Shown in pieces: positions 4,097 through 32,963 of a DNA stretch of 64,000 bases. The position numbers were made by a program, and so were the translations under genes. The stretch comes from Slackia piriformis YIT 12062 (GTDB lineage: Bacteria > Actinomycetota > Coriobacteriia > Coriobacteriales > Eggerthellaceae), in the NCBI RefSeq assembly GCF_000296445.1, contig NZ_JH815198.1, forward strand, positions 1,303,114-1,367,113, written 5' to 3'. The notes beneath the pieces are model-generated. The model saw only the letters and a program-made list of their open reading frames with translations, did no database searches and had not been told where the DNA came from. How positions within the stretch are numbered: the first letter of the stretch is position 1; each line of letters starts with the position of its first letter.

Positions 4097-5446
4097 CTAT
4101 TCCTCGCCGAAGGCCACATCCAAAAAGTCCGTGCGAGCTTCGCCTTTCTGGAAGATTTCGGCATCAAGAACACGCTTATGGAACGGAATAGTCGTTGCAA
4201 TGCCCTCGATCTTAAACTCCTCGAGCGCACGACGTCCGCGAGCAAGCGCCTCTTCACGATCCTGGCCCCAAACAATAAGCTTGGCCACCATGGAGTCATA
4301 GAACGGAGAGATAACCGACCCTGCATTGATGTAAGACTCGACACGAATGCCAGAGCCGCCCGGAACGTCAAAACGCGTGATGGTGCCCGGACAAGGACGG
4401 AAGCCGTTCTCGGGGTCTTCCGCGTTGATGCGGAATTCGATCGCATGGCCGTTCGGAGAGAACGGAGCGCGATCGGCGCAGCTCATAGGCTCGCCCGAAG
4501 CGATACGCAGCTGCTCCTTGATGATGTCGGTACCGGTGATCTGTTCGGTCACGGGATGCTCCACCTGCACGCGCGTGTTCATTTCCATGAAATAGAACTT
4601 GCCGCTCTCGTCAAGCAAGAACTCGATCGTGCCGGCGTTGCGATAATCCACGGCCTCGACAGCCTTGACCGCGGCTTCGCCCATGGCGGCGCGAAGCTCG
4701 TCGTCAAGCGCCGGAGAAGGGGCCTCTTCGAGAAGCTTCTGATGGCGACGCTGGATGGAGCAATCACGTTCGCACAGAGCCACATGATTGCCGAAATCGT
4801 CCGCAAGAACCTGAATCTCGATATGACGGGGACGCAGCACGAGCTTCTCGAGATATACATCGTCGTTGCCGAACGCGGCAGCAGCCTCGGCCTTGGCAGC
4901 CGTAAACGCGCCCTCCAGGTCTTCAGGCCTGTGCACTTCACGCATGCCCTTGCCGCCGCCGCCTGCAGAAGCTTTGATCAAAACGGGGTATTCGACGGCC
5001 TCGGCGAATGCGCGGGCGTCTTCGACCGTTTCCACCACGCCGTCCGAACCGGGAACCGTAGGAACTCCGCATGCGGCCATGGTCTCGCGGGCAACCGCTT
5101 TGTTGCCCATGCGTTCGATGCATTCGGGGGCAGGACCTATAAAAACAAGGTCGTTTTCAGCGCATGCGCGGGCGAAATCGGCGTTTTCGGCCAAGAAACC
5201 GTAGCCGGGATGCACCGCTTCGCAACCCGTGGTAACAGCGGCCGCAATGATGTTGGACATGACCAGGTAGGACTTTCCTGCCGGGGCAGGTCCGATGCAA
5301 ACCGCCTCGTCGGCGTATTTCACCGGCAACGTGTCCTTATCCGCCGTTGAATACACCGCGACCGTTTTCACGCCAAGTTCGCGAGCGGCACGCATGATAC
5401 GCAGCGCGACCTCTCCGCGGTTGGCAACCAGAATCTTTTTGAACAC
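4097..5446 (-). CDS. accC: Biotin carboxylase subunit
   Basis: ATP-dependent carboxylation of the biotin carried on a BCCP domain, the first half-reaction of acetyl-CoA or pyruvate carboxylase. The 449 residues show the full three-part fold: N-terminal domain ([18 protein letters not shown], then YADEAVCIG and [17 protein letters not shown]), ATP-grasp domain with the glycine-rich loop [12 protein letters not shown] near 160-170, and the active-site region [14 protein letters not shown] near 290. The GTG start lies 2 nt after the stop of the upstream carboxyltransferase-BCCP gene, so the two are translationally linked. The gene order efp...accB-accC-asp23-nusB of Bacillus places this at the fatty-acid accC position. 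No second biotin carboxylase gene is visible in the window, so this subunit may serve both carboxylases discussed under findings. Confidence 0.95.
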
Positions 5447-5448
5447 GC

Positions 5449-7338
5449 CTATTCCCCCTCGCCTGCATCTGCGGCACCATGAGGCTCAATATAGAACAAA
5501 GGCGTGCCGAATTCGACGGGGGTAGTGTCATCGAGGCAAACCTCGCGCACGGTGCCCATCTGAGGAGCAGCGATTTCGTTCATGAGCTTCATGGCCTCGA
5601 CGATACACAGGGTCTCGCCCGCGGCAACTTCGTCTCCCACCTTGACGAAGGGAGCTTCGCCCGGAGCCGGAGCGGCGTAGAACGTACCGACCATGGGAGC
5701 GGTTACCTCCACCCAATGCGCGGGACGAGCCGGAGCGGCCTCGGCAGGAACGGCAGCGGGCGCGGCTGCGGCAGGAGCGGCAGGAGCGGCAGGCGCAGCT
5801 GCAGCAACGGGAGCCGCGGCGGCTGCAGGAGCAGAGCCGGGCATGCGGACGCTGATGCGCATGCCTTCCTCTTCAACGGTGATTTCGCCGACGCCGGATT
5901 CTTCGACAACTTTTACCAGCTCACGAATCTGATTGATGTCCACGTAATCGTCCTCCTTGGTCTGGCTGGATTCACGTTCCAGCAGGAAATCAACTTGCTC
6001 GGTAGCGCGATGCTTGGAGAGGAAAGTGCGCGCCTCGTTGGGGAACAAGGCGTACATGAGCACATCTTCCTCAGACGTTGCCAGATCGCCGATTTCATCT
6101 TTGACCTGCTCGAACGTCGTTGTTGCAAGGGAGGCGGGAGCAACATCGGGAGGAAGCACGTCCGCGTTGCCAACAACCTTCTTGTAAATCTCGGGAGAAA
6201 TGGGGCCCGGCGCCTTGCCATAGTAACCGCACAGGTAATCTTTCATCTCCTTGGAGACAACGCTCCAACGAGAGCCCGTGAGCACGTTGAACACGGCCTG
6301 CGTGCCGACGATCTGACTCATGGGGGTGACCAGCGGCGGATAGCCGACCTCGGCGCGAACGCGCGGGATTTCGCGCATGACCTCGTCCAAGCGGTCAGAT
6401 GCGTTCTGGATTTCCAGCTGGGAAACTAGGTTGGACATCATGCCGCCGGGAACCTGGTGCGAGTACACCTTCATATGAGTGAGAGAGGAGACGCCGCGCT
6501 TGTAATGGCCGCGCTTGCGCACTTCCTCCCAGTAATCGGCAATTTCGAACAAAAGATCGAGATCGTAGCCGGTGTCATAACGGCTTTCCTGAAGCGCCGC
6601 CACGATGGTCTCGACCGCAGGATGGCTGTTGCCGAAAGAAAGCGGGGCGGAAGCGGTGTCCGCGATAGCGGCACCAGCCTCGGCGGCCTTGATGATGTTC
6701 ATAGGAGCCATGCCGCCCACGTAATGGCAGTGAACGTGCACCGGAAGGCCGATTTCGGCATTGAAAGCCTTGACCAAGCGCTCGGTGCGATACGGCGTGA
6801 GCATGCCCGCCATGTCCTTGATGGCGATGGAATCTGCGCCAAGGTCTTTGAGTTGCTGACCGTACTCCAGATAGCCGTCCAAGGTATGCACGGGGGAAAC
6901 CGTGTAGGAAATGGCAGGCTCGAACCAGCCGCCGCACGCCTTGATGGCCTCGGCGTTGTCAACCACGTTGCGAATATCGTTCAAGGCGTCGAAAACGCGG
7001 AATACCTGGATGCCGTTTTTCTTCGCGCACGCGATGAAGTGATTCACGATGTCTTTGGAATAATGCTTATAGCCCACCAGGTTCTGGCCGCGCGAAAGCA
7101 TGGCGAGGTCAGTGTTGGGCATATGCGCCTTGATGGAGCGCAGGCGCTCCCAAGGGTTTTCGTCCAGAAACCTCAGACAGGTATCAAACGTTGCACCGCC
7201 CCAAGCCTCGACAGCCCAATAGCCCACCTTGTCCATCTTGGGCAGAATGGGCAGCATGTCGCCGAGCTGCATGCGGGTAGCCCAAAGGCTTTGCTGGCCG
7301 TCACGGATGGTGGTATCCATCAGTTGCAAACCTGGCAT
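5449..7338 (-). CDS. pycB: Pyruvate/oxaloacetate carboxyltransferase fused to an AccB-type biotin carrier
   Basis: Residues 1 to about 450 form a carboxyltransferase of the PycB/OadA family: metal-binding start [44 protein letters not shown], the biotin-site lysine segment [13 protein letters not shown] and [12 protein letters not shown]. It transfers carboxyl groups between biotin and pyruvate. Residues about 467-629 resemble a whole AccB protein, including its distinctive N-terminal helix ([17 protein letters not shown]), an Ala/Pro linker and a biotinyl domain with EAMKLMNEI, Lys584 being the biotin site. Ordinary PycB carriers usually end in AMKM and lack the AccB helix. With accC next door it should form a two-subunit pyruvate carboxylase; no decarboxylase beta or gamma membrane subunit is present. 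ATG follows GGAGAGGTG. Confidence 0.9.
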
Positions 7339-25782: not shown

Positions 25783-28269
25783 CTAAAATTTCCTGAATCG
25801 CTCATAACGAAGGTCCAAAAGCTCTTCGAGGTCAAGCGACGAAAGCTCGTCAAGCCGGTGAATCACATACCCGCGCACAACGGCCGCGGCAAGCTCGGGG
25901 TTCGCGCTCGCCGAACCCTCCCCTTCCTCGAGCACCGCATCGATGATGCCCATCTCGAAAATCTCATAGGCGTTCATGCGCATGACCGCAGCAGCTTCCG
26001 GCGCGCGGGAGCGGTCCTTCCACAGAATGGAAGCGAACCCTTCCGGCGAAAGCACCGAATACACCGCGTGTTCCTGCATGGCAACGCGGTCGGAAAGCGC
26101 GAGCGCAAGCGCACCGCCCGACCCGCCTTCTCCGACCAAAACGCTTACGATGGGCACGCGAAGGCCCGCCATGGCGAAGAGGTTATCGGCTATGGCGCCC
26201 CCTTGCCCGCGCTCTTCAGCCTCCTTGCCGCAAAACGCTCCCTGCGTGTCCACCAGGCACACTACGGGCAGGCCGAAACGCTCGGCAAGGCGCATCACAC
26301 GCAGGCTTTTGCGATACCCCTCCGGCTGAGGGCAGCCGAAGTTGCGGCGGATGCGTTCGTCGAGGTTCGCGCCCTTTTCCTGAGCGATCACCGCCACGGC
26401 CCGCCGTCCGATCCAGCCGATGCCCGCCACGATCGCGCCGTCGTCGGCGAAGGCCCGATCCCCATGCAATTCGAAAAACCCATCCGTCATGGACCTGAGG
26501 TAGTGCATCGACGTCGGACGATGCACGTCGCGTGCTATCTGAACGCTTGCCCATGCGGGGTTTTGCGCACCGTCTGCACCCGTTTCGTCTGCGTTGCGCA
26601 CCGGTGTCGTCAACAGGGCCGCAAGCCTCCTGCTGCTCTCTTCCCTGCTGCGACGTTCCCATGCGGATTGCTTCTTGCGCGGACGGGGCATGTGGGAAAA
26701 CGCAGCTCTGAAAGCACTGCGCAACGATTCCGCAGAACGTACGTTCTCTGAGCCTCCCGCGCTCGCAACGGCGCCCTCCAGGCATTCGCGCGCGCTCGGA
26801 TGCGCCGCCAAGGCGTCGTGCAATTCCGAAACGCCCCTGACCGATTCACGCCCCAGGCCGCTCGCGCCAAACGACGTTTTTCGTCCGCACGAGCCCGCAG
26901 CGCACAGCGCAAGCAGGTTCGCCAACTCGCCGCGCAAATCAGCACGATGCACGATGGCGTCGATCAGGCCGTGTTCAAGCGCGAACTCTGCGGTCTGAAA
27001 CTCTTTCGGCAGCTCCTGACGAATGGTGTCCTGGATAACGCGGCGCCCGGCGAACCCGATAAGGGCCTTTGGCTCCGCAATGATCACGTCCCCCTGCATG
27101 GCGAACGACGCGGTAACGCCGCCTGTGGTCGGGTCGGTTATGACGGAGAAGTACGGCAGACCCGCCTGCGCGTGACGCTCTATGGCGCATGATATCTTCG
27201 CCATCTGCATAAGGGACACCAGCCCCTCCTGCATGCGCGCTCCCCCGGAGGCGCAGAAAATCACCAGCGGCAGCCCCTCGGCCGTCGCACGCTCCACGGC
27301 GTAGGTGATGCGCTCCCCTACGACCGAGCCCATGGACCCCATGAAAAACGTCGAGTCCATGACGCATACGACAACAGGCATGCCGGCAATGCGGCCCACG
27401 CCGCAACGCACGCCCTCGGAAAGATCCGTACGCGCACGCATGGCCTCGAGCTTCTCGAGATACCCCGGAAATCGAAGCGGATCGCCTTCCTCGAACGCTG
27501 TATCCCAGTCCTCGAAAGACCCTTCGTCTACAAGGTCGAAGATGCGCTCCGAAGAGGTCATGCGAAAATGATGCCCGCATGAGGGACACGTCTTGTGCCT
27601 CTCGCGCACATGGGCTGCGTCGAGCACCGCGCGGCATTTCGGGCACACCATCCAGGCATCAGGGCTCGCTTGGGCCAACATTCCGCTTTCGCAACGGCAA
27701 AAAGCCCATGCTTTCGTCAGACCCCCGAATGCGTCCGTCGTCGACGCCTCCTCAAGGCGAAAAACGCTCCTTGCATCGTCGCATGCCATGCCAACGAACC
27801 GTTCGTCGTCGGCAAGATGAGAATCGATCAGCAAGATAGCCTCGGCACGAACGACCTCCGCCGCAGAAAGCACGCGGTAGTTGTCGTCGAAGGCGCCGTC
27901 GGCCTTGCGCGCCCCGATGCAGATTTTCTGCTCTGCCAAGGCGAGATACGGGGCGTCTTTCAAATCCTCCGTATAGGCCGCACAGGGAGCAAGCGCCGCG
28001 GCACGGCATGCGGCCAGGACCTCTTCGACACGGGGTCCGCAGCCTACCACCAGCACGCGCTCGATGCCGTCGAGGCTCATGTCCGCAAGGCTCACGAGTT
28101 CGTCTTCGTCTGCAACCATGGCATCGGAGACGCCGCGCTCGTGCTTGTACTGCTCTTTCGCCGATTCGACCAGTTCGCCGATGCGCGAAAGGTCGCGCTC
28201 GTCGGCGGGAAGTTCGGTCGGGATGGTTATATAGGCCCCGCGTGCCTTTTTAGACCCAGACGCAAACAC
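25783..28269 (-). CDS. accDA: Fused acetyl-CoA carboxyltransferase AccD-AccA with N-terminal biotin-carboxylase-like region
   Basis: Transfers the carboxyl from biotin to acetyl-CoA to give malonyl-CoA for fatty-acid synthesis. In 828 residues the order is: residues about 68-165 similar to the first lobe of biotin carboxylase (RVLVVGCGPRVEEVLAACR, AEQKICIGA); a zinc ribbon with Cys209, 212, 228, 231; AccD carboxyltransferase (about 240-490, SGGARMQEGLVSLMQM); a linker; and AccA (about 600-828, HGDRAFADD, RRNFGCPQPEGYRKSLR, VGEGGSGGALALAL, PEGFASILWKD). The ATP-grasp core of biotin carboxylase is absent. The GTG start lies 10 nt after the fabZ stop with GAGGAG upstream; a longer frame would overlap fabZ. 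It closes the fatty-acid operon, which has no accB or accC of its own. Confidence 0.93.
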   Translation of the reverse strand: MFASGSKKARGAYITIPTELPADERDLSRIGELVESAKEQYKHERGVSDAMVADEDELVSLADMSLDGIERVLVVGCGPRVEEVLAACRAAALAPCAAYTEDLKDAPYLALAEQKICIGARKADGAFDDNYRVLSAAEVVRAEAILLIDSHLADDERFVGMACDDARSVFRLEEASTTDAFGGLTKAWAFCRCESGMLAQASPDAWMVCPKCRAVLDAAHVRERHKTCPSCGHHFRMTSSERIFDLVDEGSFEDWDTAFEEGDPLRFPGYLEKLEAMRARTDLSEGVRCGVGRIAGMPVVVCVMDSTFFMGSMGSVVGERITYAVERATAEGLPLVIFCASGGARMQEGLVSLMQMAKISCAIERHAQAGLPYFSVITDPTTGGVTASFAMQGDVIIAEPKALIGFAGRRVIQDTIRQELPKEFQTAEFALEHGLIDAIVHRADLRGELANLLALCAAGSCGRKTSFGASGLGRESVRGVSELHDALAAHPSARECLEGAVASAGGSENVRSAESLRSAFRAAFSHMPRPRKKQSAWERRSREESSRRLAALLTTPVRNADETGADGAQNPAWASVQIARDVHRPTSMHYLRSMTDGFFELHGDRAFADDGAIVAGIGWIGRRAVAVIAQEKGANLDERIRRNFGCPQPEGYRKSLRVMRLAERFGLPVVCLVDTQGAFCGKEAEERGQGGAIADNLFAMAGLRVPIVSVLVGEGGSGGALALALSDRVAMQEHAVYSVLSPEGFASILWKDRSRAPEAAAVMRMNAYEIFEMGIIDAVLEEGEGSASANPELAAAVVRGYVIHRLDELSSLDLEELLDLRYERFRKF

Positions 28270-28279
28270 CGTAACTCCT

Positions 28280-28717
28280 CTATGCCAAAACGTACTTTTG
28301 AACCGCCGACGCCGCAACCTGGCCGTCGACCGTCGCCTTCACCTCGGCAACGCACATGCGTCGCGAGGACTTCGCGATAATCGCCTCGAGGCGAACCGTA
28401 TCGCCGGGAACCACCTGGCGACGAAACTTCGCGCCGTCGATGCCCGTCAAAAACCCGATCGCGCCCTCTTGCCCGCGAGCAGCAAGCACGCAGCACGAGG
28501 CGGCCTGAGCAAGCGCCTCCATGATGATGACGCCCGGCAAAACGGGATGGCCGGGGAAATGTCCCTGGAACAAAGGAAGCCCGGGATCCACGTCAAGCTC
28601 CGCCACGATGCCCACGCCAGGCTCGCACGCAAGAATTCGGCTGACCCAGACGAAGGGGGCGCGATGCGGCAGCAATGCTTCAACGCCCTCTTTTCCACAA
28701 GGGAATGCAATGTCCAT
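28280..28717 (-). CDS. fabZ: 3-hydroxyacyl-ACP dehydratase FabZ
   Basis: Dehydrates 3-hydroxyacyl-ACP to trans-2-enoyl-ACP in the elongation cycle. The 145 residues are a single hotdog fold with the start LLPHRAPFVWVSRI and the active-site helix GHFPGHPVLPGVIIMEALAQ (His and Glu). ATG at 28717 follows AAAAGGCGAAG. The gene lies 12 nt after fabF and 10 nt before accDA. No FabA-type isomerase or FabI is seen in the cluster, so unsaturated-fatty-acid formation would need another enzyme. Confidence 0.95.
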   Translation of the reverse strand: MDIAFPCGKEGVEALLPHRAPFVWVSRILACEPGVGIVAELDVDPGLPLFQGHFPGHPVLPGVIIMEALAQAASCCVLAARGQEGAIGFLTGIDGAKFRRQVVPGDTVRLEAIIAKSSRRMCVAEVKATVDGQVAASAVQKYVLA

Positions 28718-28729
28718 TCTTCGCCTTTT

Positions 28730-30010
28730 CTACGAAAGCCCACGGTACGGCGCAATGGCAAGCGACGCGTTATGGCCGCCGAACCCGAGCGAATTGCTCA
28801 AGGCCACCTTCTGCTCGCACCCTTCGAGCGCGCGGCCCGTGACCACGTTTACGCCGCACTCGGGATCGACCTGCGTCGTGCCGACCGTCGGAGGAACGAC
28901 GGATTCCGACACCGAAAGCGCGCAGACAATCGCCTCGAGCGCGCCGGCTGCGCCGAGCGTATGACCTACCGTGCCCTTGACGGAGGTGACGGGAACCTCG
29001 CGCCCCTTTTCGCCCAAAAGGACGCGAAGCGCCGCAGACTCGGTCGCGTCGTTGGCATGGGTGGAAGTGCCGTGCGCGTTGAGGTGCCCCACGTCCTCGA
29101 GGGCGAAGCCTCCCTCGGATAGCGCCTGGCGCATGGCGCGCACGATGCCTTCGCCGCTCGGGTCGGGCGCGGTCATGTGAAACGCGTCTCCCGTAGACCC
29201 GAAGCCCGCGACCTCGGCGAGAATGCGGGCGCCGCGAGCCGTCGCATGCTCGAGGGACTCGAGCACCAATGCGCCGGCTCCTTCGCCGGGAACGAATCCG
29301 CTGCGGTTCACGTCGAAAGGCATCGCAGCCCGCGTGGGGTCTTCCGCCTTCGTCAGCGCCCCCAGATTGCCGAATCCGGCAAGGCAGATAGGAGAGATGG
29401 ACTCTTCGCTTCCTCCAGCCAAGGCCGCATCCGCATACCCATGGCGAATGAGACGATACGCCTCGCCCACGCAGTGGGAGCCTGTCGCGCACGCCGTGAC
29501 GATGCTGAGGCAATCGCCCTTCAGCCCGTAGCGAATGGATAGGTTTCCTGCCGCCATGTTTTCAATCATGGTGGGGATGAACAGCGGATTCACGCGCTTC
29601 GCGCCTTTTTCGTGCAGGGTGATGCAACCTTTTTCGAGCTCCTCAAGGCCGCCTATTCCACTTCCCCACACGCACGCCATGCGGCAGGCGTCGCCCTCTT
29701 CGGCGCAAAGGCCGCTTTGGGCCATGGCCTCGTCGGCCGCAACGATGGCGTACTGGACGAACGGGGCGAACCTGCGCGCTTCTTTTTTGGAAAACCCGCA
29801 TGCCACAGGGTCGAAATCGGGGATTTCTGCCGCAACGCTTCCCGCAAAACCGCTTGCATCGAATTTCGTCACCTTGCCTATGCAGCAACGCCCTTCTTTG
29901 ACCGCGCTCCACAAAGGCATAACGCCGATGCCAGCAGGAGACACAGATCCCATGCCTGTGATGACCACACGATGCGTGCCGTCGCTTTTGCGCATTTCGT
30001 TCGTGCTCAT
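28730..30010 (-). CDS. fabF: Beta-ketoacyl-ACP synthase II
   Basis: Condenses malonyl-ACP with acyl-ACP to extend the chain. The 426 residues hold the Cys-His-His triad: Cys in SIVTACATGSHCVGEAYR, His in LNAHGTSTHANDATE and His in GTVGHTLGAAGALEAI. The N-terminus after a polar extension reads VVITGMGSVSPAGIG as in FabF. The ATG overlaps the fabG stop by four bases (ATGA), so translation is coupled. The initiating synthase FabH is not present in this cluster or window. Confidence 0.97.
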   Translation of the reverse strand: MSTNEMRKSDGTHRVVITGMGSVSPAGIGVMPLWSAVKEGRCCIGKVTKFDASGFAGSVAAEIPDFDPVACGFSKKEARRFAPFVQYAIVAADEAMAQSGLCAEEGDACRMACVWGSGIGGLEELEKGCITLHEKGAKRVNPLFIPTMIENMAAGNLSIRYGLKGDCLSIVTACATGSHCVGEAYRLIRHGYADAALAGGSEESISPICLAGFGNLGALTKAEDPTRAAMPFDVNRSGFVPGEGAGALVLESLEHATARGARILAEVAGFGSTGDAFHMTAPDPSGEGIVRAMRQALSEGGFALEDVGHLNAHGTSTHANDATESAALRVLLGEKGREVPVTSVKGTVGHTLGAAGALEAIVCALSVSESVVPPTVGTTQVDPECGVNVVTGRALEGCEQKVALSNSLGFGGHNASLAIAPYRGLS

Positions 30011-30783
30011 AGCGAAATACCTCCGTCTACGCCTATGACCTGTCCCGTGATGTATCCGGCCGCATCGCTCGCCAAAAACGCGACCGCGTTCGCCACGTCC
30101 TCTGGCTGCCCAAGGCGCTTGGAAGCAATGCGGGAAAGAGCCGCCTCCCTTGCCTTTTCGCTCATAGCGCGCGTCATATCCGTCTCGATGAATCCGGGAG
30201 CGATGGCGTTGACCGTGACGTTGCGCGACGCGACTTCACGGGCGAGCGATTTCGTCAGCCCGATGATGCCCGCCTTCGATGCGGCGTAGTTCGCCTGTCC
30301 CGCGTTGCCGAACACGCCCACCACGCTGCTCATGTTGACGATGCGCCCCCGTCGGGCCTTCACCATAGCCGGAATCACGGCGCGGGAGCAGTTGTACGTA
30401 CCTTTGAGATTCACGGCGATAACGCGGTCGAAATCCTCTTCCTTCATGCGCATCATGAGTCCATCCTTGGTGATGCCCGCATTATTGACCAGCACGCGCA
30501 CCGGCCCCAAGGCGCAAGCAGCACCTTCAAGCAGCGAAACGGCCGCCTCGAAAGACGAGACGTCCGCCTCGAAGGCGCGGGCCGAAACGCCGAAGCGCTC
30601 CTCCAAGTCTCGGGCAAGATCGGCCGCTACCTGGGCGCTTCTTGCGTTCGAATGGTTGACGGCCACGTTGTAACCCGCCGCCGCAAGCGACTCGCAAACC
30701 GCCTTCCCTATGCCGCGCGCACCGCCCGTCACCACGGCGCAGCCTTGCACGCAAAGATCGTTATCCGCCATCCGGAACTCCAT
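30007..30783 (-). CDS. fabG: 3-oxoacyl-ACP reductase FabG
   Basis: NADPH-dependent reduction of 3-oxoacyl-ACP. The 258-residue Rossmann protein has VTGGARGIGKAV for cofactor binding, VLVNNAGITKDGLMMRM near 95 as in FabG, the catalytic Ser-Tyr-Lys set in NMSSVVGV and ANYAASKAG, and the C-terminal YITGQVIGVDGG. The start ATG at 30783 follows AAAGGAATC; the upstream extension read by the open frame overlaps fabD and is rejected. Overlaps fabF by four bases. Confidence 0.96.
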   Translation of the reverse strand: MEFRMADNDLCVQGCAVVTGGARGIGKAVCESLAAAGYNVAVNHSNARSAQVAADLARDLEERFGVSARAFEADVSSFEAAVSLLEGAACALGPVRVLVNNAGITKDGLMMRMKEEDFDRVIAVNLKGTYNCSRAVIPAMVKARRGRIVNMSSVVGVFGNAGQANYAASKAGIIGLTKSLAREVASRNVTVNAIAPGFIETDMTRAMSEKAREAALSRIASKRLGQPEDVANAVAFLASDAAGYITGQVIGVDGGISL

Positions 30784-30815
30784 GCGATTCCTTTCCTCGA
30801 AGCCGTGCACCGGCT

Positions 30816-31754
30816 TTAAGCATCCTGTGTTTCTGCGAGCTTCTCGACAACCGCCTCTAAATCCTCGCGCGACTCTATGCGCATGCGCACGGCGCCCTTG
30901 TCCACGCGACGGACCAGCCCCACAAGCACGCCGCCCGTTCCGCACTCCACGAACGTGTCAACCCCCTGTTCGACCAGCCACGCCACACTCTGGCTGAAAA
31001 GAACCGGGGAGGTCAGATGAGCCACGAGATGAGCGGCGGCATCGTCGGCGCGAAGAGGCCGCGCATCCACGTTGCAAACCAGGGGGATCTTCGGCTCGTC
31101 GAATACGACGCCTTCGAGACAGGCTGAAAACGCCTCCGCGGCAGGCTGCATCAAGGGACTGTGAAATGCGCCTGCCGTCGCCAGCATCGCGCTGCGCCTG
31201 CCCGGGCCCGACCACGCCTCTTTCGCACGCGCCACCGCCGCCGCATCTCCCGAGACCACGATCTGCCCCGGTGCGTTGAAGTTGGCGGGCACGAGCACGT
31301 CGCCTTCGGCGCAGGAGGAGCACACGTCACGGACTTCCTCTTCAGCGCCGCCCATCAAAGCGCACATAGAGCCCAATCGCAGCCCGCACGCTTCGGCCAT
31401 GACGCGCGAGCGATCTCGCACCAGGGAAAATACCGTCTTCGCATCGAGCATGCCGGAAACGGCAAGCGCGCCCATCTGCCCGAGGGAAAACCCCGCCACG
31501 TAATCGGGCTTAACGCCGCGCCTAACAAGCGCCCGGGCCTGGGCGACGGAAAGCGCGCATAGCGCCGGTTGAGCGACCGCCGTGTCGGCAAGCAAATCGC
31601 CTGTTTCGTCCAGGCACGCCGCCGCGACATCGAAGCCGCACGCATCAGACGCCTCGCAGAACACCTCGTCTATCTCGGGCACGCCGAATAACGTCGCCCC
31701 CATGCCGGGCTTTTGCGAGCCCTGGCCGGAAAGAAGAAACGCCACCTTTCCCAT
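30816..31754 (-). CDS. fabD: Malonyl-CoA:ACP transacylase
   Basis: Moves malonyl from CoA to ACP to supply the elongation cycle. The 312 residues contain the opening FLLSGQGSQKPGMG, the nucleophile elbow GFSLGQMGALAV and the active-site His in AGAFHSPLM. The elbow normally reads GHSLGE; here His and Glu flanking the Ser are Phe and Gln, a notable but tolerated variation. ATG 31754 follows AAAAGGAG. It lies 2 nt from fabK upstream and 32 nt from fabG downstream. Confidence 0.94.
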   Translation of the reverse strand: MGKVAFLLSGQGSQKPGMGATLFGVPEIDEVFCEASDACGFDVAAACLDETGDLLADTAVAQPALCALSVAQARALVRRGVKPDYVAGFSLGQMGALAVSGMLDAKTVFSLVRDRSRVMAEACGLRLGSMCALMGGAEEEVRDVCSSCAEGDVLVPANFNAPGQIVVSGDAAAVARAKEAWSGPGRRSAMLATAGAFHSPLMQPAAEAFSACLEGVVFDEPKIPLVCNVDARPLRADDAAAHLVAHLTSPVLFSQSVAWLVEQGVDTFVECGTGGVLVGLVRRVDKGAVRMRIESREDLEAVVEKLAETQDA

Positions 31755-31756
31755 GG

Positions 31757-32731
31757 TTAGCTCCTTTTCCGCACCACGCGAAGCGCCGAGGCATCAGCAA
31801 GCCCCTGCAGGCCGAGCGAAGCGCGACTCATGCCCTGCGCCATCAACTCTTCCACCACATCGCGCGCGCTTCTACGCTCATGGACCAAGCAGGCCGCCTG
31901 TCCGGCCATAAGCGACCCGCCATCGACATCCCCCTCGACGGCGCGGCGCAACGAGCCCGCATACAGCCCTTCGAGCTCGTCGGGCGAAGCCGCCGCGTCT
32001 TCGAGAGAGCGAACGTTGCGAGACCATGCGTTTTTCAGGCACCGCACGGGATGACCGGCCCCGCGACCGGTTACGATGGTGTCGGAATCCTTGGCCGCAA
32101 GCACCTTGGCTTTGTAGGCCTCGGCGATGCAGCATTCTTCGACCGTAAGAAAACGCGTGCCCACTTGGACGCCTTCCGCGCCAAGGGCAAAAGCCGCCGC
32201 AACGCCGCGCCCGTCGGCGATGCCGCCCGCCGCGATGACGGGGATGGTGACGGTGTCGCACACCTGCGGCACAAGGGCCATGGTGGAAAGCTCTCCTATG
32301 TGGCCTCCCGCCTCCGTCCCTTCGGCAATCACCGCATCGGCGCCGCAACGTTGCATGCGAGCGGCCAAAGCGCTCGACGCCACCACGGGAACGACTTTCG
32401 CCCCTGCCTCTTTCCACTGCTCTATGTACTTGCCAGGGCTTCCCGCACCGGTCGTTATGACGTCGACGCGAAGTTTCGCGAGCACATCGGCCACTTCGTG
32501 CGCCTGAGGGTCCATGAGCATGACATTCGCTCCGATAGGATTGTCCGTCATGGAACGGGCAATGCGCACCTGTTCTTCAATCCAGGCGATACTTGCCCCG
32601 CCGCACGCGATGACCCCCAGCCCACCAGCCGCCGAAACAGCTCCGGCAAGCCTGCCGTCGGCAATGCGGGCCATGGCTCCTTGGATGATGGGGTGCTTGA
32701 TGCCTAGCAGCTTGGTAACACGCGTATCCAT
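31757..32731 (-). CDS. fabK: FMN-dependent enoyl-ACP reductase FabK
   Basis: NAD(P)H- and FMN-dependent reduction of enoyl-ACP, the last step of the elongation cycle in streptococci, clostridia and relatives that lack FabI. The 324-residue TIM-barrel protein shows HPIIQGAMARIADGRLAG, GGLGVIACGG, DVITTGAGSPGKYIE, EGTEAGGHIGE and VIAAGGIADGRG, typical of FabK and of nitronate monooxygenases; the operon position favours FabK. The start ATG at 32731 is chosen 10 nt after the acpP stop, since the longer frame overlaps acpP. No other enoyl reductase is visible. FabK enzymes are insensitive to triclosan. Confidence 0.92.
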   Translation of the reverse strand: MDTRVTKLLGIKHPIIQGAMARIADGRLAGAVSAAGGLGVIACGGASIAWIEEQVRIARSMTDNPIGANVMLMDPQAHEVADVLAKLRVDVITTGAGSPGKYIEQWKEAGAKVVPVVASSALAARMQRCGADAVIAEGTEAGGHIGELSTMALVPQVCDTVTIPVIAAGGIADGRGVAAAFALGAEGVQVGTRFLTVEECCIAEAYKAKVLAAKDSDTIVTGRGAGHPVRCLKNAWSRNVRSLEDAAASPDELEGLYAGSLRRAVEGDVDGGSLMAGQAACLVHERRSARDVVEELMAQGMSRASLGLQGLADASALRVVRKRS

Positions 32732-32741
32732 ATAACAGCGC

Positions 32742-32963
32742 CTACTTAAGGGAATCGATGTAGGACACGAGCTGACCGACCGTGGAAAGCCCCTCGGGCT
32801 CGCCGAATTCGATATCGCACCTTTCTTCAAGGTCGCAAATCAGTTCGACCATGTCCAAAGAATCCACGCCGAGCGACTCGAACGTTGCGTCCTCGGTCAC
32901 GGAATCGGCGTCGATATCGAGGTTGTCGGAAAGGACGGATGCGACGGTTTCAAGAGTAGTCAT
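32742..32963 (-). CDS. acpP: Acyl carrier protein
   Basis: Carries growing acyl chains on a 4'-phosphopantetheine arm. The 73-residue acidic protein has the four-helix pattern with the attachment site GVDSLDMVELICDLEE (Ser in DSL). ATG follows GAAAGGTAAACAATC. It is the first gene of acpP-fabK-fabD-fabG-fabF-fabZ-accDA and has its own promoter region just upstream with a FabT-like operator candidate (32983-32999). Confidence 0.97.
   Translation of the reverse strand: MTTLETVASVLSDNLDIDADSVTEDATFESLGVDSLDMVELICDLEERCDIEFGEPEGLSTVGQLVSYIDSLK

Follow-up and report, generated by a model that had tools for sequence, protein, structure and literature searches.

A biotin carboxylase N-lobe fused to the AccD-AccA carboxyltransferase of Slackia piriformis and its relatives

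The fab operon of the window (the whole 64,000-nucleotide stretch of Slackia piriformis DNA analysed here) has the order fabK-fabD-fabG-fabF-fabZ-accDA. Its final gene encodes a single chain in which equivalents of AccD and AccA, the carboxyltransferase (CT) subunits of acetyl-CoA carboxylase (ACC), are preceded by a lobe resembling the N-domain of biotin carboxylase (BC). A second locus in the window, that of pyruvate carboxylase (PYC), bears on the supply of the remaining ACC subunits. The features of both are as follows.

4097..5446, minus strand: AccC, the genome's only full BC (TIGR00514, 681 bits, cut-off 626.5; PF00289 search of the genome)
5449..7338, minus strand: PycB-type CT fused to AccB, adjoining accC on its upstream side (PF00682, PF02436, PF00364; NF006761, 747 bits)
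5485..5943, minus strand: complete ACC-type AccB with thumb motif, the C-terminus of the PycB protein (TIGR00531)
25783..28269, minus strand: lobe-AccD-AccA fusion gene, 828 aa, GTG start (open reading frame and ribosome-binding site; Pfam and NCBIfam matches to ACCA, accD and Biotin_carb_N)
25786..26574, minus strand: AccA (CT alpha) part, residues 566-828 (PF03255, 355 bits; TIGR00513, 321.5 bits, cut-off 319.3)
26890..27654, minus strand: AccD (CT beta) part with Cys4 zinc ribbon, residues 206-460 (TIGR00515, 361 bits, cut-off 317)
27754..28071, minus strand: BC N-domain-like lobe, residues 67-172 (PF00289; profile against PDB; AlphaFold2 model; Foldseek and VIA-align)
28280..28717, minus strand: fabZ, adjoining the fusion on its upstream side (PF07977)
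28730..30010, minus strand: fabF (Pfam)
30007..32830, minus strand: fabG, fabD and fabK-type genes of the same operon (Pfam adh_short, Acyl_transf_1, NMO)

The frame of the fusion gene is open from the GTG at 28269 down to the stop at 25783. The fabZ stop lies ten bases before this GTG, and GAGGAG (28280-28275) lies five bases 5' of it; between fabZ and fabF, accB is absent. Both the AccD and the AccA equivalog models score above their cut-offs and the Cys4 ribbon is present, its four cysteines (C209, C212, C228 and C231) being invariant (alignment A4), which identifies the predicted product as an ACC carboxyltransferase.

The first-pass annotation of this DNA had aligned the lobe by eye with the first lobe of the AccC encoded at 4097-5446, and had proposed a profile search. 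That alignment proved essentially correct. PF00289 (Biotin_carb_N) matches the full-length protein with 28.4 bits (cut-off 25.5; profile positions 2-101 of 110) and the lobe alone with 32.1 bits against the same cut-off, and NCBIfam AccC models also match this stretch. A profile built from 16 lobes and searched against the PDB sequences (E <= 0.01) gave 59 matches, every one of them a BC or a BC-containing carboxylase (best E 6.4e-15). The lobe was further compared with alignments of AccC N-domains by hhalign, giving a probability of 98.7% (E 4.5e-16, 108 columns), the controls (eight column shuffles and a reversal) reaching at most 1.2% and E 0.045 or worse. By these comparisons the homology of the lobe to the BC N-domain holds over approximately residues 67-172. 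Past model position ~114, similarity to AccC was found in none of the lobe proteins, the stretch between lobe and AccD included, and the ATP-grasp and C-terminal domains of AccC are absent from them; the lobe had rightly been described as partial and devoid of the ATP-grasp core.

Structure prediction agrees with this assignment. The AlphaFold2 model of the lobe alone, made from an alignment of lobe sequences only, has an alternating beta-alpha fold with a core pLDDT of 93-98, and the top 50 entries retrieved with it by Foldseek (best E 8.6e-8) and by VIA-align (Z 15-16, up to 16.1) are all BCs or BC-containing carboxylases. The lobe is thus predicted to have the pre-ATP-grasp fold, and the ordered, BC-like model argues against the dissimilar domain or disordered linker that had been considered as the alternative. 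The model of the whole chain has three folded regions, the lobe and the two CT parts, and mostly low confidence for the linker (461-565) and the first 60 residues. The VIA-align match reaches AccC residues ~308-316, past the ATP-grasp domain, which may be a retained element or chance packing.

Counted at a score of at least 60 bits, the lobe is present in 58 of the 298 genomes of our class sample, nearly always within an open frame of ~750-1000 aa. Most of these genomes belong to the Eggerthellaceae, the family of the window, and three further families contribute a single genus each; among the carriers are Slackia exigua, Adlercreutzia caecimuris, A. mucosicola, Gordonibacter sp. 28C, Enteroscipio rubneri, Parvibacter caecicola and Raoultibacter timonensis. 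Canonical relatives have the order fabK-fabD-fabG-fabF-accB-fabZ-accC-accD(A), and lobe genomes the order fabK-fabD-fabG-fabF-fabZ-(lobe-accDA), with accB missing. The lobe sits exactly between fabZ and accD, that is, in the slot of accC, and because it occupies this place it is most likely an accC stump. In a tree of the AccD and AccA parts (57 taxa), the 31 lobe CTs all fall together on a single branch (97/94). Next to it stands genome G050, whose AccDA lacks the lobe and has no accC upstream of it, followed by four genomes in which the operon is canonical. A single putative gain explains the distribution of the lobe. The tree of lobes and BCs (106 columns) sets the two groups cleanly apart across a long branch, and no donor AccC can be named from it. 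The simplest history that we infer from gene order and tree is that the operon accB was lost, accC was truncated and the stump was joined to accDA. The evidence thus fits an in-place remnant of a separate accC, and not the relic of a larger fused AccC-D-A protein that had been suggested at first.

Two lobe-less operons deserve mention. The AccDA of G050 (contig L112, 13330-15201, plus strand) has a leader, KKYIEI, that resembles the YITI-type leader of the lobe proteins, which may mean that G050 once had the lobe and lost it, instead of never having acquired it. G009 (L113), placed in the genus of the window, encodes AccD and AccA as separate, lobe-free proteins in a canonical accB-fabZ-accC-accD-accA operon; this CT clusters with those of other families, which suggests either retention or replacement of the operon.

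To describe what the lobe has kept, we scored, across 34 lobes, the positions whose conservation among 76 AccC sequences is 90% or more. The motifs that the first-pass annotation had seen as common to lobe and AccC are real and correspond to residues of the fold core (G52 kept in 100% of lobes, G25 and A69 in 97%, F91 in 94%, L6 and L85 in 91%), but those of the BC signature motifs NRGE and HPG[FY]G have not survived: N9, H79, P80 and G83 are kept in 0%, E12 in 3%, and retention over these positions and G81 is 0-9% in all. Residues of the BC homodimer are kept in a minority of lobes (R16 35%, R19 12%, E23 24%), which leaves the idea that the lobe simply imitates the BC dimer contact unsupported. 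The lobes have kept residues of their own (T at 33, L59, F60, V66, A95 and V102). With the signature residues, the ATP-grasp domain and the C-terminal domain all missing, the lobe does not qualify, as far as its sequence tells, as a functional BC, and cannot carboxylate biotin. In close species pairs, the dN/dS of the lobe is nevertheless low (0.014, 0, 0.06, 0.10 and 0.11), similar to that of AccD and AccA, sometimes lower than that of AccD, and in most pairs lower than that of the 461-565 linker; in more distant pairs the lobe has evolved faster than the CT parts. Lobes have been retained across dozens of species despite divergence to 21-33% identity. Judging from these ratios, the lobe is under purifying selection. 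As the catalytic motifs are gone and yet selection acts, we regard it as a re-used domain, and not as the decaying relic that the word originally applied to it would imply.

The fused CT would have to obtain its BC and carrier from elsewhere than its operon. A PF00289 search of the genome matches only the lobe and the AccC at 4097-5446, which is part of the PYC locus. Next to it, TIGR00531 matches residues 466-618 of the PycB protein with 159.6 bits (cut-off 115.2; model positions 1-155 of 156), and a reading of this part reveals a thumb-like insertion of 16 residues and the biotinyl-lysine motif EAMKLM. On this profile evidence the carrier, which alone in the genome matches PF00364, is an ACC-type AccB of full length, unlike an ordinary PYC biotin domain. 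An assignment of 5449-7338 to a Na+-pumping oxaloacetate decarboxylase is unsupported, as the genome has no match to PF03977 (OadB) and TIGR01108, the oadA equivalog, scores 649.8, below its cut-off of 756.5. In total, the genome, which is 98.85% complete and lacks OadB, encodes a single copy each of a full BC, a biotin carrier, a CoA-type carboxyltransferase (the fusion described above) and a biotin ligase. Its gene content implies that acetyl-CoA and pyruvate carboxylase probably share BC and carrier; given a single BC, a single carrier and an ACC-type AccB on PycB, sharing is the most economical reading.

This sharing may be old in the class. Of 99 class genomes that are 90% complete or better, ~67 have a TIGR00531 match in a frame of ~610-710 aa, as expected for a PycB-AccB fusion (judged by frame length), and in several relatives whose tails were read directly the junction is identical in kind. 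In the other orders of the class, the match of this size is usually the sole one, alongside a separate AccD, and in deeper lineages the fusion is the only AccB, together with a plain AccD. Lobe genomes occur both with and without a second AccB-AccC pair, separate gene pairs of this kind lying outside the fab operon in several of them (L125-L131). In view of these extra pairs, and of the plain-AccD lineages with PycB-AccB alone, the lobe appears to be independent of sharing, neither needed for it nor tied to it.

What, then, might the lobe do? The reading we favour, with a probability of about one half, is that an in-place accC stump has been kept as a docking or assembly domain for a CT whose BC and carrier are supplied in trans. 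The operon accC would have lost its ATP-grasp and C-terminal domains, the N-terminal pre-ATP-grasp stump joining the front of accDA. The single AccC would load CO2 on the biotin of PycB-AccB (or of a separate AccB, where present), and AccDA would take the carboxyl group from the carrier and make malonyl-CoA. The lobe, itself non-catalytic, would bring the AccC-AccB complex into position at the CT, which is the weakest step of the scheme. Placed in front of AccD, it could preserve or replace an AccC-AccD contact like that proposed for E. coli, and this might be why only the N-lobe of AccC was kept. In E. coli the contact is predicted by an AlphaFold2 complex model and linked to coevolution data, the passages of PMC10863985 that concern it not assigning it to the N-domain; PDB entries for the solved E. 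coli complex are 8uxz, 8uz2, 9e4n and 9e4o. One might speculate further that the lobe is an adaptor letting the fatty-acid CT compete for the carrier within a dual pyruvate/acetyl-CoA carboxylase system, and thereby coupling anaplerosis to lipid synthesis, but we consider this doubtful.

The main rival to docking fits the data nearly as well. The lobe may be purely structural, stabilising the zinc-ribbon side of AccD or providing a new CT-CT contact without any recruitment of AccC or AccB. Its fusion directly before the zinc ribbon, its presence whether or not a dedicated AccB-AccC pair is available, and the loss of the BC dimer and catalytic surfaces with conservation of the fold core and of new lobe-specific residues would all be expected of such a part. 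However, AccD-AccA works without a lobe elsewhere, including in the sister G050, and a BC piece at exactly the place of accC suggests a BC-related role; we hold the structural reading to be possible, at well under even odds. Control of ACC activity by a small ligand or regulator bound to the lobe is unlikely. Fatty acid synthesis is usually controlled at ACC, pre-ATP-grasp folds are Rossmann-like and the lobe is under selection, but no conserved ligand motif is seen and NRGE and HPG[FY]G are lost.

It is improbable, too, that the lobe is a neutral accC relic awaiting removal. The exact position of accC, the missing catalytic motifs and the one sister lineage without lobe (G050) would be in keeping with this, whereas the low dN/dS, sometimes below that of AccD, and the intact, confidently predicted fold kept in dozens of strongly diverged species speak against it. 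An unrelated Rossmann-like domain with only a resemblance to the BC N-lobe, which the low pairwise identity between lobe and BC (~25%) might bring to mind, is highly improbable and already refuted at the sequence level: the profiles single out BCs, the hhalign E value stands against clean controls, and the lobe lies where accC should be.

Neither the fusion of AccD with AccA nor the sharing of carboxylase subunits is new in kind. The four-subunit ACC of the E. coli type (AccA, AccB, AccC, AccD) has the same families of CT subunit, BC and AccB, and the Bacillota and the canonical relatives have the same fab context (accB-fabZ-accC-accD-accA); here, AccD and AccA are fused behind a BC N-lobe, accC and accB are gone from the operon, and AccB is fused to the PYC carboxyltransferase. 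The AccDA fusions of Clostridia/Lachnospiraceae and of other Coriobacteriia have the same one-chain AccD-AccA order (~560-620 aa), but lack the lobe and have a full accC directly upstream. In two-subunit PycA/PycB pyruvate carboxylase, too, an AccC-like BC accompanies a PycB-type CT whose C-terminus is a biotin domain (NF006761); in the present case this domain is an entire AccB, ACC thumb motif included, and plausibly able to serve AccDA as well. In actinobacterial acyl-CoA carboxylases, one alpha (BC-BCCP) chain serves several CTs, and one BC/carrier for more than one CT is what we propose here; there, however, BC and BCCP make up one chain that works with acyl-CoA-type CTs, while here it is to the pyruvate CT that the carrier is fused. 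CT and BC pieces also share one chain in multidomain ACC of the AccADCB type (PDB 9kkm, by its name) and in a Saccharopolyspora carboxylase, as portrayed in passages of PMC6491548; in these the BC appears complete, and here only ~106 residues remain. In the literature searched (most subscription journals lay outside it), we found no description of a conserved non-catalytic BC N-lobe on AccDA, of a PycB-AccB fusion as the only carrier, or of the sharing of BC and carrier between PYC and ACC.

Little is understood so far of how BC, carrier and CT meet in bacterial ACC of the multi-subunit type, which is an antibiotic target, and a natural CT carrying the BC N-lobe alone is a ready-made probe of the BC-CT contact. 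PycB-AccB with a single AccC suggests, moreover, that one BC-carrier pair runs both carboxylations in much of the class, which is directly testable and, if true, alters the metabolic models of these bacteria.

Two lobe carriers have unusual loci. In Parvibacter caecicola (L111/L143), the fabZ before lobe-AccDA ends an open frame of more than 2500 aa that has no other Pfam match and may be spurious in this G+C-rich DNA; discrete fabK, fabD, fabG and fabF genes were not detected beside its fabZ and lobe-AccDA. Raoultibacter timonensis (L152, 4631-9711) has two tandem copies of fabZ and lobe-AccDA, by an assembly join or possibly by true duplication, each with a disrupted frame, and one of the AccDA frames runs into a FabF-like stretch.
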